A stretch of 64,000 nt of DNA from Candidatus Bathyarchaeota archaeon (GTDB lineage Archaea > Thermoproteota > Bathyarchaeia > Bathyarchaeales > Bathycorpusculaceae), in assembly GCA_026014485.1 (NCBI GenBank), contig JAOZIE010000023.1, forward strand, positions 124,001 through 188,000. Direction: 5' to 3'. The translations under genes and the position numbers were made by a program. Below are positions 12,887 to 21,245 of this stretch, in pieces; positions within the stretch are counted from its first letter, which is position 1, and every line of letters starts with the position of its first letter. A model generated the notes under the pieces. It ran no database searches, was not told the DNA's origin, and saw only the letters and a list, made by a program, of their open reading frames with translations.

Positions 12887-14269
12887 TTGAAATACGATGT
12901 GATAATCGTCGGTGCCGGTCCAGCAGGAATCTTCTCTGCATTAGAACTCACTCAAAAAAATAACCTTAACGTGCTGATTCTTGACCGCGGTCTAGAAATT
13001 GACCAGCGTAAATGCCCCTCAAGTCGAGGGCTGGAATGTCACCACTGCGAACCCTGCTCGATTCTTTCAGGATGGGGCGGCGCAGGCGCTTACAGCGACG
13101 GCAAACTCACCCTGTCAACCGAAGTAGGCGGGTGGCTTAACCAGTATGTTACCGAAAAAGAACTCAAGGCGCTTGTGAAGTATGTGGATGATGTCTACTT
13201 GAGGTTCGGCGCCAGCGAGCACGTTTACGGCGGGGACACTGACGCAGTAGACGAAATTGAGCGCCAAGCTGCCGCAGCGAGTCTTCGGCTGATTCGGCAA
13301 GAAGTCCGACATATGGGCACCGAGAAATGCGCCGATACCCTGCGTATGATGCACAAGGAACTAGATGACAAAATCACGTTTATGCCCAAAACCGACGTGA
13401 AAGGGCTTCTCATTAACAACCGAACGCTTGAAGGCGTCGAAACAGTCGACGGCGAGAAATTGAAATCTAAATACGTGATTGTTGCGCCCGGCAGGGGCGG
13501 AGCTGAATGGCTGCAGACTGAAGCGCAAATTAACGGGTTAAAAACTGTTAATAACCCCGTGGATGTCGGCGTAAGAGTTGAGGTTTCCGCGACCGCCATG
13601 GAACGGTTGACTTCAGTTCTTTATGAGCCCAAGCTTGTTTACTACAGCAAACTTTTCGACGACATGGTCCGCACTTTTTGTGTTTCTCCCTATGGCGAGG
13701 TCACAACCGAATCCTATGATGGCGTCTTAACCGTCAACGGCGGAAGCTACGCTGAGAGAAAAACAGACAACACAAACTTTGCGGTTCTTGTAAGCACATC
13801 TTTCACGGAGCCTTTCAAAGAACCCATCGCCTACGGCAAATACATTGCTAGGCTCTCGAACCTGCTCAGCGGTGGTGTGATGGTGCAGCGTCTGGGCGAC
13901 TTAGTGGCTGGGCGTCGAAGCACTCCTGAAAGGCTATCCCGCAGCGTCGTTACGCCTTCTTTGAAGAACGCGACTCCCGGAGACCTCAGCTTCGTTTTGC
14001 CTTACCGATACCTGCAGGACATACGCGAGATGCTTCAAGCCTTAGACGTAATCGCTCCTGGCGTACACTCACGGGATACTCTGCTGTATGGTGTAGAAGT
14101 GAAGTTCTACTCTTCCCATCTGCAGCTTACCAACTCTTTGGAAACCAAGATTCCCAACATGTTTACCATTGGAGATGGCGCCGGCGTCACCCGAGGCTTG
14201 ATTCAAGCTTCAGCTTCAGGCGTTATCGTGGCAAGGGAAATTTTGAAGCGTGAACATTTGAAGGAGTAG
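12887..14269 (+). CDS. FAD-dependent dehydrogenase (COG2509 type)
   Basis: 460-residue flavoprotein. The N-terminal dinucleotide-binding motif VIIVGAGPAGIFSALEL is followed by a Cys-rich insert (CPSSRGLECHHCEPC) and GWGGAGAYSDGKL, typical of this uncharacterised group. The C-terminal FAD motif is GDGAGVTRGLIQASASG. No substrate is known. TTG start at 12887 follows a GGAG. Only 2 nt separate it from the Zn-ribbon gene, so it leads the 12.9-17 kb operon. Confidence 0.88.
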   Translation: MKYDVIIVGAGPAGIFSALELTQKNNLNVLILDRGLEIDQRKCPSSRGLECHHCEPCSILSGWGGAGAYSDGKLTLSTEVGGWLNQYVTEKELKALVKYVDDVYLRFGASEHVYGGDTDAVDEIERQAAAASLRLIRQEVRHMGTEKCADTLRMMHKELDDKITFMPKTDVKGLLINNRTLEGVETVDGEKLKSKYVIVAPGRGGAEWLQTEAQINGLKTVNNPVDVGVRVEVSATAMERLTSVLYEPKLVYYSKLFDDMVRTFCVSPYGEVTTESYDGVLTVNGGSYAERKTDNTNFAVLVSTSFTEPFKEPIAYGKYIARLSNLLSGGVMVQRLGDLVAGRRSTPERLSRSVVTPSLKNATPGDLSFVLPYRYLQDIREMLQALDVIAPGVHSRDTLLYGVEVKFYSSHLQLTNSLETKIPNMFTIGDGAGVTRGLIQASASGVIVAREILKREHLKE

Positions 14270-14271
14270 CC

Positions 14272-15018
14272 ATGGACGCGGTAGCCCAGCAAATCCGGTG
14301 TAGCCACTGCGGTGCTCCCGTGCAGTTTAATCCGGGGGAAATCATCGCTACCTGCAAGTACTGTGGCTTCACAACCGTTATACAGACCGGGCAAGCCTTC
14401 ACCTTTGAACATAGCCTTATCCTCAACAAGTATGACCCAGCAACAATCGAGGAACCCATTAAAAACTGGATGAGCGGGGGCTTCCTGAAACCTGGCGACT
14501 TAGCACGGAAATCTACGCTTTTGGAGAAGAATCTGGTTTACCTGCCGTTTTGGGTGGTTTCCGTTGAAGCTAAAAGCATCTATAAAGGTATCTTTGAACG
14601 CATCGCGCCTGCCATAGTGAAAGAGGGCACGCTCACCAAGGAGTATGATTGGCTGATTCTGGCAAGGGAAGCCTCTGGTTTTCCTACACGCGAATACAAG
14701 ATTCCTCTGGAAGGAAAGATTCCCTACGACTTTCGGCGAATCGAGGGGTTTGCTAAGCTTTTGAACAGCGAAATCAACCGTGAAGAAGCACTGGATCTTG
14801 CCCAAACCCAGATTGATGCTCGCCACCGCTTTCTGCTTCAGGAAGATGTTGACCGGGTCATAGAGATTAAGACCGAGCTTAACTTGAAGCAGATGGTTTA
14901 CCTACACGCACCCATCTGGTTCATAAAATACAAGTACAAAGGCAACGTTTACCAGTTAACGGTGGATGGCGCCACGGGTATGGCAGTGAAAGGCGACATT
15001 CCATCTAACAGATTTTAA
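14272..15018 (+). CDS. Zinc-ribbon protein of the SPFH operon
   Basis: 248 residues. An N-terminal zinc ribbon (CSHCGAPVQF...CKYCGFTT, about 10-38) is followed by a mixed alpha/beta domain with no transmembrane helix. The layout recalls B. subtilis YdjG-type proteins, often mis-annotated as helicase-related from the ribbon alone. It is second in an operon ending in SPFH and membrane proteins, suggesting a role at the membrane. Family assignment is tentative. Confidence 0.75.
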   Translation: MDAVAQQIRCSHCGAPVQFNPGEIIATCKYCGFTTVIQTGQAFTFEHSLILNKYDPATIEEPIKNWMSGGFLKPGDLARKSTLLEKNLVYLPFWVVSVEAKSIYKGIFERIAPAIVKEGTLTKEYDWLILAREASGFPTREYKIPLEGKIPYDFRRIEGFAKLLNSEINREEALDLAQTQIDARHRFLLQEDVDRVIEIKTELNLKQMVYLHAPIWFIKYKYKGNVYQLTVDGATGMAVKGDIPSNRF

Positions 15019-15092
15019 AAATGTTTGATTAACAAACTTTAAAAGTGTCCTTTTGTTATGAACGAATGCCGAAAAAAGGCGGAGAAATGAAA

Positions 15093-15632
15093 ATGAGCGA
15101 CAAAAAGGATGATGTTTATTCAGAAGTGAAAGGTCAAATGCGCCTTTCAGAACGCATAGTTGCGTTCATTCCCGGTTTCCGGGGCTACAAAGAAAAAGAG
15201 TTGCGTCGTGAAAGCGACAGGCTGCTTAGGAATCATCTTTACCTGAAACTCTCCGCGGCTAAAACTGATCTGAAAATCCTCTCTCAAAAGTTGTCTGACC
15301 GCCGCTACTTTGATGTCTTAACAGACATGGATCGGCTTGTTGCAAAAACTGACCGTGTAGTCGAGAAAGTTAACCATGCATCCTACGGTTACACTGGGTT
15401 CTTTGACGCCGTTAAAGTGAAGGAAGAAGCGCTTGACAGGATGATAAATTTCGATAGTACCCTCATGGAAGGAATAGATGCTTTAATCGCAGAAGTTGAC
15501 GCCTTCAAGTCGGAGTTGACAAGCGGCGAAACCAAGAACCTCAAGACCCTCATCCAGAACGTAACCAGTAAGCTTGATAGTCTAGAAAGCACTTTTGATA
15601 AACGTGAAGAAGTAATTTTAGGAGTGACCTGA
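15093..15632 (+). CDS. Helical coiled-coil protein of the SPFH operon
   Basis: About 179 residues, nearly all helix and highly charged (KEKELRRESDRLLRNHLYLK; LIAEVDAFKSELTSGETKN). There is a conserved-looking amphipathic start around ERIVAFIPGFRGYKEKE. It occupies the place that PspA-type coiled-coil proteins hold in bacterial SPFH loci, but I cannot show homology. GGCGGAG at 15078-15084 favours ATG 15093 (ATG 15087 is possible). One nt separates its stop from the SPFH gene. Confidence 0.72.
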   Translation: MSDKKDDVYSEVKGQMRLSERIVAFIPGFRGYKEKELRRESDRLLRNHLYLKLSAAKTDLKILSQKLSDRRYFDVLTDMDRLVAKTDRVVEKVNHASYGYTGFFDAVKVKEEALDRMINFDSTLMEGIDALIAEVDAFKSELTSGETKNLKTLIQNVTSKLDSLESTFDKREEVILGVT

Positions 15633-15633
15633 C

Positions 15634-16614
15634 ATGCCGCAAGTTATCGAATGGCTAAACGCTGGTCCCGACGACATAGTCTGGCGTTACCCCAGCGAAG
15701 ACATTACGTGGGGCGCCCAACTCATCGTGCAAGAGTACCAGATGGCGGTGTTCTTCCGAGACGGCAAAGCCTACGACGTATTCAACGCGGGACGCCACAC
15801 CCTGACAACCCTGAACCTGCCGCTGCTGACTAGTTTGTTAACACGTTTAGCGGGGTTCGGCGGTAACAAGCCCTTCAAAGCATCCGTTATATTCATCAGC
15901 AGCAAGGTCTTCGCTGGCAAATGGGGCACCCGCGCGCAAACCACTGAGCTGGCGCCGCTGCAGGTGTTTGGGCAGTTCTGGTTCAAAATCGAGGACGCAT
16001 CGCTGTTCGTGAACGAGGTTGTTGGTGGGCAAAACGCTTACACCACCGACGAAGTTAACACTTACCTGCGGGGCTTTTTGAACGAGAAAATAATTGATGA
16101 ACTCAGCCACTACGACTTAGTTACGGTGTTTACGCGGCTGGATGAAACCTCTGTTATCGTGAAGAACTCGCTGATTGACTACTTCAAACGTGTCGGCATC
16201 GAAATTACAGACCTACGCTTCGGAGGCATCGACACCACACCCGAATACCGTGAACGTCTCTTCTGGCTCAAAACAGGCAAAACCGCACCTGACGAAGTCC
16301 TGCGGATGGAGACCCTTAAGAGCGCAGCAGATTCACTGGGGAAGTCCGGTGGAGGTGGAGCAGCACTGGGAACGGGCATGGTGCTTATCCCGCAGATTAT
16401 GACGCCCACTGGTGCTCAAGCAGCGCCTGCGGCAGCCTTAGTTATCTGTCCTAAATGCAGCGCTCGAGTTCCAGCCACAAGCAAGTTCTGCCCCGAATGC
16501 GGCGCGGCGCTGGCGCCTCCAGCAGCGGGAGCCATAAACTGCCCCAAATGCGGCAAGTCGATTCCAGCCAACTCCAAGTTCTGCCCTGAATGCGGGCAAT
16601 CAATCTCCTCTTAA
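15634..16614 (+). CDS. SPFH-domain protein with two C-terminal zinc ribbons (YdjI-like)
   Basis: 326 residues. The SPFH/band-7 domain (about 15-230) is of the YdjI or 'virion core protein' type, with WRYPSEDITWGAQLIVQEYQ and DVFNAGRHTLTT near the start. A Gly/Ala linker (about 232-268) leads to two zinc ribbons, CPKCSARVP...CPECG and CPKCGKSIP...CPECG. SPFH proteins scaffold membrane microdomains. Operon context with a Zn-ribbon, a helical and a membrane protein matches PspA-YdjGHI-type envelope stress loci. Confidence 0.9.
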   Translation: MPQVIEWLNAGPDDIVWRYPSEDITWGAQLIVQEYQMAVFFRDGKAYDVFNAGRHTLTTLNLPLLTSLLTRLAGFGGNKPFKASVIFISSKVFAGKWGTRAQTTELAPLQVFGQFWFKIEDASLFVNEVVGGQNAYTTDEVNTYLRGFLNEKIIDELSHYDLVTVFTRLDETSVIVKNSLIDYFKRVGIEITDLRFGGIDTTPEYRERLFWLKTGKTAPDEVLRMETLKSAADSLGKSGGGGAALGTGMVLIPQIMTPTGAQAAPAAALVICPKCSARVPATSKFCPECGAALAPPAAGAINCPKCGKSIPANSKFCPECGQSISS

Positions 16615-16631
16615 GCGACGGGGTAACGGCT

Positions 16632-16970
16632 ATGGCGGAAGAGAGACGGCAAACCCTAACAGTTGGCGTCTTCTTACTCGTTTTGGCAGTAGCTTTACTG
16701 TTGGCGGCGACTCAAATCATAAGCTGGGGGCTGTTTGCTCCCGTGGTTCTGGTGCTGTTCGGCATCTGGATGCTGGCTTTGGCGGCTTTGCGCGGCGCGA
16801 ACCCGCAGAAGTACGCACGTGGTTCCTTTGGCACTGCTGTAATGGGTTTGCTGTTAATTGCTGTAGGCGGCGCATGGTATCTGTTCAGCGTTAACTGGCT
16901 CTATTCCATAGTCGTAATTCTGCTGGTTGTGGCAGTTATCGCAATTGTAGCTGCCCTAAAACGCAAATAA
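16632..16970 (+). CDS. Small membrane protein closing the SPFH operon
   Basis: 112 residues with four hydrophobic helices at about 10-30, 33-51, 66-84 and 87-107, and a basic C-terminus (LKRK). No motif. ATG 16632 follows ACGGGGTAACGGC, 18 nt after the SPFH stop. It would anchor the operon's complex if that role is right. Confidence 0.75.
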   Translation: MAEERRQTLTVGVFLLVLAVALLLAATQIISWGLFAPVVLVLFGIWMLALAALRGANPQKYARGSFGTAVMGLLLIAVGGAWYLFSVNWLYSIVVILLVVAVIAIVAALKRK

Positions 16971-16974
16971 CCCC

Positions 16975-17000
16975 GCGGAGCCCTTTTTTGGCTCCCGCCT
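16975..17000 (+). terminator. Hairpin terminator after the SPFH operon
   Basis: GCGGAGCC at 16975-16982 pairs with GGCTCCCGC at 16990-16998 (one bulged C) around a T-rich loop, followed by CTTTTAATTTC. Archaeal termination needs mainly the U tract, so the hairpin is supportive only. Confidence 0.45.
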
Positions 17001-19596: not shown

Positions 19597-19643
19597 GCGT
19601 TTCTTATTTTATACATCAGTCAATTTAACAGAAGGCACTTGTG

Positions 19644-21245
19644 ATGAGTGAAAAAATAGTCGGTCGCGGCACATGGTACGACCTCATGGCGAAAAAGGTA
19701 GTTGACCGAGAAAAGAAGCTGGGCAGAAACACCGACCGAATCCGCACGGAGATGGGTCTTGGCGCCTCTGGTTTTCCTCACATCGGCAGCTTAGGCGATG
19801 CCTCCCGCAGCTACGCCGTCACGTTGGCGCTTAGGGATATGGGCTTCAACTCGGAGTTAGTGGCCTACTGTGACGACAAGGACGGACTCCGCAAGGTCCC
19901 CGCTGGCTTATCTAAAGATTTGGAGAAGTATCTGGGGCACCCCGTTTCCAGCATCCCCGACCCATTCGGATGCCACGAAAGCTTTGGCAAACACATGAGT
20001 TCGCTGCTGCTCGAGTCACTGGACAAGTGCGGCATCGAATACCGATACTTCAGCGCAAAGGAAGTTTACGAGAAAGGCATAATCCTACCCGAAATCCGCA
20101 CCATACTAGCGAATGCGCAGAAGGTGGGCGAAATCGTCAAGGAAGAAGTCGGGCAGGAACGTTACACCGAGCGGCTACCCTTTTTCCCCGTCTGCGCCAA
20201 ATGCGGACGCATCTACACCACCAACGCCTACGCGTTCGAACCGAAAACCGACAAGGTGCTCTACAAGTGCGAGGGTTTGGAAATCCGCGGCAAACTCATC
20301 AAGGGCTGCGGCCATGAGGGCGAAGCCGACATAACCAAAGGCGAGGGCAAGTTGACTTGGAAAGGCGAATTTGCCGCCCGATGGAAAGCCCTCGACATCA
20401 GGTTTGAAGCGTTCGGCAAAGACATAGCCGACTCCGTACGCATCAACGACCGCATCAGCCGCGAAGTCCTCAACTTCGAGCCACCCAGCCACGCCCGCTA
20501 CGAGATGTTCCTTGACAAAGGCGGCAAAAAAATCAGCAAATCTGCAGGTAACGTGTTTACGCCGCAGGTTTGGTTCCGCTATGGCAGCCCCCAGTCGCTT
20601 CTGCTGCTGATGCTAAAGCGGTTCGTGGGCACCCGCAGCTTGGACGTTTCAGACATCCCCTCATACATGAACGAGTTGGACTACCTTGAAGAAGTTGTCT
20701 TCGGCACAAAGCAGGTCAGCAAACGGGAACTGGTGAAGCTGAAGGGCTTATACGAGTACTGCTGGGTCACTAAACCACCTGCCAAACCCAGTGTGCATGT
20801 ACCCTACAACCTGATGGCGTTCTTAGCCAAGATGGCGCCCAAAGAGAACCCTGAAGATTTCATCGCTGACACGTTACGCAGCTACGGTTACCTGCAGAAG
20901 AACCAGCAAATCGACGACGGGTTGCGGCAGCGCATCGAGTACGCCTTCAACTGGGTTCTCGACTTCGAGGAGATAAAGGAAACCTCGGTTACCCTGTCGG
21001 AGCAGGAACGCACAGCCATATCGACTCTGCTGGAAACACTAAACGCCGAGGCAGATGCGGACAAAATACAAAACGCCATATTCCACGCCGCCAAAAGCAA
21101 CGGTCTGCAACCGCGCAGCTTCTTTAAGCTGCTCTACACGGTGCTGATGGGCGCGCCGCAGGGACCCCGCTTGGGACCTTACGTGCTGGCTATGGGCAAA
21201 CAGAACGTAGTTGCCGCGCTGCAGCGTGCGTTAGCCAAACGCTAA
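19644..21245 (+). CDS. lysS: Lysyl-tRNA synthetase, class I
   Basis: Charges tRNA-Lys using the class I enzyme found mainly in archaea. HIGH-type motif in GFPHIGSLGD (about 45-54), KMSKS-type motif KKISKSAGN (about 293), and a zinc-finger region with CAKCGRIYTT and KGCGHEGEA. Length 533 is normal. GTG 19641 directly precedes ATG 19644; the ATG is preferred. Confidence 0.96.
   Translation: MSEKIVGRGTWYDLMAKKVVDREKKLGRNTDRIRTEMGLGASGFPHIGSLGDASRSYAVTLALRDMGFNSELVAYCDDKDGLRKVPAGLSKDLEKYLGHPVSSIPDPFGCHESFGKHMSSLLLESLDKCGIEYRYFSAKEVYEKGIILPEIRTILANAQKVGEIVKEEVGQERYTERLPFFPVCAKCGRIYTTNAYAFEPKTDKVLYKCEGLEIRGKLIKGCGHEGEADITKGEGKLTWKGEFAARWKALDIRFEAFGKDIADSVRINDRISREVLNFEPPSHARYEMFLDKGGKKISKSAGNVFTPQVWFRYGSPQSLLLLMLKRFVGTRSLDVSDIPSYMNELDYLEEVVFGTKQVSKRELVKLKGLYEYCWVTKPPAKPSVHVPYNLMAFLAKMAPKENPEDFIADTLRSYGYLQKNQQIDDGLRQRIEYAFNWVLDFEEIKETSVTLSEQERTAISTLLETLNAEADADKIQNAIFHAAKSNGLQPRSFFKLLYTVLMGAPQGPRLGPYVLAMGKQNVVAALQRALAKR

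Follow-up and report, generated by a model that had tools for sequence, protein, structure and literature searches.

Does the five-gene locus at 12887-16970 of this Bathyarchaeota stretch (64,000 nt, hereafter the window) encode an archaeal counterpart of the PspA-YdjGHI membrane-stress system of Bacillus? The original prediction likened it to that system, with a helical protein in the place of PspA and a flavoprotein added to the operon. We find that the PspA idea was half right: the gene set resembles a bacterial membrane-repair operon, PspA is absent, and an apparently unrelated small protein, here called CC, stands in its place.

A YdjI-type SPFH protein and its neighbours

The tight packing of the five genes, all on the forward strand, is real, and the gaps of 2, 74, 1 and 17 nt, in order, agree with the earlier description. 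An FAD-dependent dehydrogenase (12887-14269; 460 aa, TTG start) is followed by a zinc-ribbon protein, ZnR (14272-15018; 248 aa), and by CC (15093-15632; 179 aa), whose listed reading frame reaches back to a GTG at 15045 and whose homologues begin at about the ATG at 15093. Next come the SPFH protein (15634-16614; 326 aa) and a small membrane protein, TM4 (16632-16970), for which the listed frame begins at 16590 and the ATG at 16632 is common to homologues. Where a terminator had been predicted at the operon end, a GC stem with T runs does exist (16975-16998, forward strand), but its folding z is only -1.95, making it a possible, weak terminator, and a terminator scan, which gave no excess over shuffles, did not call it. 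Sigma-type promoter predictions are uninformative here, the host being an archaeon.

The SPFH protein matches Band_7_1 (E=6.8e-33), carries two zinc ribbons at its C terminus and itself lacks a membrane segment. A Band_7_1 domain, a C-terminal zinc ribbon and the lack of a membrane segment are what we mean by YdjI-type, and all three are shared with the SPFH protein of the Bacillus subtilis pspA-ydjGHI operon; the available text of PMC8581546 reports YdjI to be without a membrane segment. A Bacillus subtilis control also scored in the family search, and the prediction of a YdjI-type SPFH/zinc-ribbon protein of the same family was borne out. The comparison of ZnR with YdjG held in part. ZnR has N-terminal zinc-ribbon cysteines that are invariant in the family, though under Pfam cut-offs, and 16 of the 18 zinc-ribbon relatives tested from outer archaeal lineages end in one or two C-terminal membrane segments, in line with descriptions of YdjG; the window ZnR, however, has none and is soluble. 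Besides the zinc ribbon, ZnR has a beta-rich domain that is perhaps PepSY-like in its predicted structure: its top structural matches are YpeB, CD1622 and YpmB, which we take to be PepSY-type domains, at Z of 5.6-6.4 over 62-67 residues, under the tool's caution level of 8. TM4 shows three clear membrane segments by hydropathy and a possible fourth under threshold, and these three to four membrane helices make it a candidate for the place of YdjH, the second membrane protein that anchors the Bacillus complex. A kinship of TM4 with LiaF/LiaI was dropped, as 2/16 and 1/16 members matched, all below cut-off. The locus shares with pspA-ydjGHI a zinc-ribbon protein, membrane protein(s) and a helical protein beside them, but it differs in that the operon and genome are without PspA, CC has no sequence kinship with PspA in the tests applied, ZnR is soluble, and an FAD gene precedes the set.

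Conservation of the CC-SPFH pair

A gene-neighbourhood survey revealed that the SPFH/zinc-ribbon, second zinc-ribbon and membrane protein genes are conserved around CC in relatives. Among relatives, 46 carry CC and wide loci were examined for 40; in 39 of these 40 loci CC is found directly upstream of SPFH, and the remaining one has SPFH in the same locus. The same holds for 17/20 wider same-phylum loci, where SPFH is nearby in the other three, and for 79 of the 80 loci from a GTDB scan, the eightieth being cut off at a contig edge; this GTDB set comprises the 80 best among 205 confirmed loci, is skewed towards close relatives and overlaps with the other locus sets in some genomes. These linkage counts are based on all ORFs, and not on the longest-ORF rule by which neighbour genes were called and under which some are mis-framed (e.g. 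L181, L091). Across 81 same-phylum genomes, a strong SPFH match was present in 39 of the 40 with a CC match (Fisher p=1.6e-15, uncorrected for kinship), and the two genes lay at most 400 nt apart on one strand in 35 of these 39. Because gene order is kept across many genomes, the arrangement is far beyond chance. What is conserved is a smaller and older unit than the original prediction supposed: its core consists of two genes, those for a YdjI-type SPFH protein and for CC, its constant neighbour in archaea, to which a zinc-ribbon gene and one for a small membrane protein are often added. That prediction had offered, as grounds for its own rejection, the lack of a conserved neighbourhood in relatives combined with an unrelated helical protein; the neighbourhood is conserved. 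No report of the CC-SPFH pair was found in the open-licence literature searched, in so far as its text was available, and a plasmid search with CC gave no match.

The FAD gene is probably a lineage-specific local neighbour and not a core part of the operon. Its product matches FAD-dependent reductases, carries a PF21688 C-terminal domain and has 3nlc (VP0956) as its closest solved relative. The gene occurs near CC in 18/40 relatives and in 42/80 GTDB-scan loci, but in 0/20 of the wider same-phylum loci. Order-level relatives (L044-L048, L052) keep the other four genes without it, and in L055 it adjoins LysRS rather than CC-SPFH; it is probably a passenger that neighbours the lysyl-tRNA synthetase region. 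A single redox-linked membrane lipid operon comprising all five genes would fit the position of the FAD gene, which immediately precedes the zinc-ribbon gene in many Bathyarchaeota and does so here with a gap of 2 nt, but given the distribution above we find this scarcely credible and already disfavoured.

CC also has clear homologues in Chloroflexota, some of which adjoin SPFH and others not. Twenty Chloroflexota genomes carry CC; 19 loci were examined, and the twentieth (G132, locus L159) belongs to the GTDB set. In 12 of the 19 there is no neighbouring SPFH gene, and CC is therefore not strictly an SPFH partner. Eleven of these 12 resemble molybdenum-hydroxylase clusters, a reading based on the sequences of L247, L258 and L262 and, for the other eight, on matching gene sizes. 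The Chloroflexota SPFH operons share the adjacent CC-SPFH pair and have a zinc-ribbon membrane protein upstream, but their SPFH protein has a weak SHOCT-like tail and no zinc ribbons, and they add a large DUF2207 membrane protein and, in a membrane-anchored winged-helix/zinc-ribbon protein, a winged helix. Seven loci were inspected as bacterial, and one of them, L183, was then set aside as a probable archaeon.

CC compared with PspA and ESCRT-III

Judged by sequence, CC is a homologue of the LIMLP_15305 family (NCBIfam NF047596), and this homology is strong though under the cut-off: the match spans ~137 residues at E=2.6e-17, but its 63.3 bits fall below the curated 210, a level reached in 0/81 same-phylum genomes. 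Searches brought up no function for the family, and in the text available the single paper that mentions the LIMLP_15305 locus only lists it next to a non-coding RNA (PMC7567364). The structural model of CC is a four-helix bundle (pLDDT 75, pTM 0.63), whose longest predicted helix has 41 residues and whose four helices are broken by a conserved glycine-tyrosine loop.

If CC were a highly diverged PspA/ESCRT-III member, the operon would be a true archaeal PspA-YdjGHI that remodels membranes by polymerising. CC is helical, of similar size and likewise sits next to a YdjI-type SPFH gene, and PspA is absent from the same genomes: PF04012 had no match in the operon or the genome, was over cut-off in 0/81 same-phylum genomes, this one included, and had no match at all in 8/8 other CC-bearing genomes. 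However, the window CC matches neither PF04012 nor PF03357 at E<=1, and neither is among the 25 commonest of the 99 families found in a scan of 40 CC members. Profile comparison gave 0.9-2.4% probability against PspA over 19-30 columns and 0.1-0.2% against CdvB, although such controls are weak, PspA against archaeal CdvB likewise giving just 0.1%. With all filters off, the PspA profile matched two of 67 CC proteins at E ~3e-4; each match is made up of two weak stretches and scores 12 bits, and we read both as coiled-coil noise. PspA has a long two-helix hairpin, unlike the four-helix arrangement predicted for CC, and the fold matches listed for the CC model include no ESCRT-III chains but helical bundles of every sort, with a best Z of 14.0, close to what is common for helical models. 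Furthermore, CdvB/Snf7 genes are present separately elsewhere in the genome. Pfam, NCBIfam, PDB sequence profile, Foldseek, VIA-align and hhalign thus yielded nothing in favour of a kinship; the PspA-CdvB control failed too, and we therefore claim no more than that kinship is not supported. The helical protein, to which the original prediction gave the place of PspA, has no kinship with PspA or Snf7 detectable from sequence, and we regard a diverged PspA/ESCRT-III member as quite unlikely. A PspA-like N-terminal amphipathic helix in CC was also considered and dropped (moment median 0.56, the 84th percentile within each protein, n=65, which is moderate).

A putative role in membrane homeostasis

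We propose, with roughly even confidence, that these genes encode a complex built on an SPFH scaffold, in which CC is the soluble partner, with a putative role in membrane homeostasis. The SPFH protein would oligomerise into a scaffold at the membrane's inner face, where TM4 and/or the zinc-ribbon protein may tether it; the accompanying genes supply membrane segments, through TM4 here and through the C-terminal segments of zinc-ribbon proteins in outer lineages. At membrane patches that are damaged or fluid, the scaffold would then bring in CC, predicted to be a soluble four-helix bundle. CC would thereby act as effector or adaptor in organisms that lack PspA, served by the scaffold and its tethers as PspA is served by YdjI/YdjG/YdjH in Bacillus.

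The same parts could instead form a complex for the quality control of membrane proteins or for regulation, and not for repair, in which the SPFH protein is the scaffold, a PepSY-like ZnR modulates a protease or signalling protein, and CC is an adaptor. The PepSY-type matches of ZnR and the Chloroflexota operons with DUF2207 and a winged-helix/zinc-ribbon protein point this way, but those matches lie below the caution level, and no recurrent protease gene appears among the labelled neighbours, many neighbours being unlabelled; we consider it unlikely. A sorting or trafficking-like complex of SPFH, arrestin-like (Spo0M/Vps26-type) proteins and CC, following the logic of archaeal adaptin/SPFH ESCRT loci, seems very unlikely. 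Arrestin-like genes or fusions occur within 4 kb of CC in 4/40, 4/20 and 2/80 loci (6 of these 10 loci supplied the search model), with Arrestin_N over cut-off in L049, L094 and L067 and under it in L055 and L059. As far as the available text of PMC11188069 goes, methanogen adaptin-type ESCRT loci combine trafficking-like genes with SPFH proteins that have a zinc ribbon and a coiled coil; compared on SPFH and arrestin-like genes, they resemble the CC loci of some lineages, but in the CC loci CC is a separate gene. Arrestin-like genes are, however, found in a minority of loci and not in the window.

Returning to the SPFH scaffold with CC as partner, the pair would separate scaffold (SPFH) from effector, which is testable with two purified proteins. 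A published survey, in its available text, describes Psp parts as poorly conserved in archaea (PMC9239133), and archaea of this phylum may cope without PspA by virtue of a conserved SPFH operon in which the helical partner is another protein. More tentatively, YdjI-type SPFH scaffolds across Thermoproteota-type archaea and in part of the Chloroflexota may have CC as their client in place of PspA, CC being a membrane-maintenance effector that has so far gone unrecognised and has no relation to ESCRT-III; in some archaea, arrestin-like proteins would join the scaffold to make a minimal sorting complex without ESCRT. If CC does replace PspA, SPFH scaffolds would serve interchangeable effectors. 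Among 121 Chloroflexota genomes, PspA occurs in 3 of the 20 with CC versus 57 of the 101 others (both in 3, CC only in 17, PspA only in 57; Fisher p=0.001, confounded by lineage).

A conserved gene pair within a five-gene set

Five genes are packed on the plus strand at 12887-16970, as the original prediction described. Their ORFs encode an FAD-dependent dehydrogenase (12887-14269), a zinc-ribbon protein (ZnR; 14272-15018), a 179-residue helical protein (CC; 15093-15632), an SPFH protein (15634-16614) and a small membrane protein (TM4; 16632-16970), separated by gaps of 2, 74, 1 and 17 nt, in a 2.37 Mb genome of 96.5% completeness. The SPFH protein is YdjI-type, with two zinc ribbons (Band_7_1 match, E 6.8e-33) and no membrane segment. 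A domain search found no Pfam family for CC, whose sole curated-family match (LIMLP_15305, 2.6e-17) falls far under the family cut-off.

CC is present in 46 of 60 relatives. We fetched loci from 40 of these 46, added 20 same-phylum loci that had an SPFH gene at their centre, and scanned named GTDB genomes for another 80; an SPFH gene starts directly 3' of CC in 39/40, 17/20 and 79/80, respectively. The neighbourhood is deeply conserved. One other gene separates the pair in locus L070, SPFH lies 0.8 to 1 kb downstream of CC in L092 and L098 and on the opposite strand in L101, and L186 stops at the edge of its contig. Across 81 same-phylum genomes, a CC match was accompanied by a strong SPFH match in 39 of 40 genomes; in 35 of these 39 the two genes share a strand and are no more than 400 nt apart. 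Six strong-SPFH genomes gave no CC match in the first search; a family model recovered CC in both loci fetched from these six (genomes G114 and G116).

The FAD gene is a local neighbour, because order-level relatives retain ZnR-CC-SPFH-TM4 without it and it occurs in only 18/40, 0/20 and 42/80 of the three locus sets. It remains close to lysyl-tRNA synthetase (19641-21245 in the window) in Bathyarchaeota, and in L055 the two are near each other though CC-SPFH does not lie between them.

CC in Chloroflexota

Archaeal and mainly bacterial CC profiles matched over their whole length at 100% probability, the mainly bacterial alignment also containing archaeal rows. CC occurs in 20 of 121 Chloroflexota genomes sampled. 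In six loci read there, not every gene being seen in each and only L159 being domain-scanned, the operon order is a DUF2207 membrane protein, a two-helix membrane protein carrying a winged helix and a zinc ribbon, CC, and an SPFH protein with a weak SHOCT-like tail. CC is not tied to SPFH everywhere, since only 7 of 19 Chloroflexota CC loci fetched have SPFH adjoining. Eleven lack SPFH (L247, L249-L251, L253, L254, L257-L259, L261, L262) and have CC followed by a small membrane protein and then molybdenum-hydroxylase-like (xanthine/CO dehydrogenase type) subunit genes, read by sequence in three loci and by gene sizes in eight; one has neither neighbour.

CC as a possible PspA stand-in

The original prediction likened the operon to a PspA-YdjGHI membrane-stress locus, possibly in an archaeal version, with the helical protein in PspA's place. 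The architecture is partly right; the equation of CC with PspA is not supported, as sequence comparison finds no kinship between the two, although the same method also missed the PspA-archaeal CdvB control link and could therefore overlook a very deep relationship. An AlphaFold2 model of CC (pLDDT 75, pTM 0.63) predicts four principal helices, respectively 41, 22, 34 and 20 residues long, together with a conserved glycine-tyrosine loop; ESCRT-III chains were not among the matches listed in its fold search. CdvB/Snf7-type genes sit elsewhere in the window's genome, where one match exceeds the Pfam cut-off and the other falls short of it (G000:C5:46160-46678, G000:C7:63475-63774).

The interest of the locus lies in CC as a possible PspA stand-in. 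No PspA was found in the window's genome, in any of 81 same-phylum genomes over cut-off (11 had weak partial matches) or in any of the eight further genomes with CC that were searched, of which six belong to Chloroflexota. PspA exceeds the cut-off in 60 of the 121 Chloroflexota genomes. Three of these 60 also carry CC, whereas another 17 genomes have CC but no PspA above the cut-off, a sub-threshold PspA match being present in one of the 17 (Fisher p=0.001, without correction for kinship); the presence of one protein thus tends to go with the absence of the other.

In Bacillus, YdjI is soluble, with YdjG and YdjH required to take YdjI and PspA to the membrane (PMC8581546). By analogy, we propose that TM4 and ZnR would tether the archaeal SPFH protein as YdjG/YdjH do, and that the tethered protein would bind and recruit CC as PspA is recruited, possibly for membrane repair. 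Two observations count against this model: in some Chloroflexota loci CC lacks an adjoining SPFH gene, and three genomes carry CC as well as PspA.

The zinc-ribbon protein and module variants

The ZnR model matched in 27/40 relatives, 15/20 same-phylum and 58/80 GTDB-scan loci. Outer archaeal lineages carry two tandem ZnR paralogues, and in 16 of 18 outer-lineage proteins tested the C terminus bears one or two membrane segments, as has been described for YdjG. Another clade has a longer ZnR, and L067 and L099 encode ZnR as a fusion with an arrestin/Spo0M-like domain. Eight further loci have free-standing arrestin-like genes no more than 4 kb from CC. Such genes near or fused into the module (L049, L055, L059, L067, L094, L095, L097, L099, L166, L176) frequently encode a C-terminal zinc ribbon.

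Foldseek with the predicted ZnR model (pLDDT 80) gave a best match of only E=0.14. The top four VIA rows were YpeB, CD1622 and YpmB (twice), at Z 5.6-6.4 across 62-67 residues. We take these structures to be PepSY-type domains, and the modelled likeness is a lead only.

In one Bathyarchaeota clade, a convergent short gene just past SPFH encodes a protein like the SPFH zinc-ribbon tail (L054:5889-6215, L058:8587-8955, L066:9066-9380). An ATPase gene follows SPFH in some Brockarchaeota-type loci, being AAA_14 by domain scan in L087 (3067-4341) and similar by eye in L084 (3454-4734). Finally, L183, recorded as 'bacterium isolate Centralia_MAG_577', has an archaeal-type SPFH operon adjoining what by eye looks like the gene for archaeal RNA polymerase subunit L; this entry is probably mislabelled and belongs to an archaeon.
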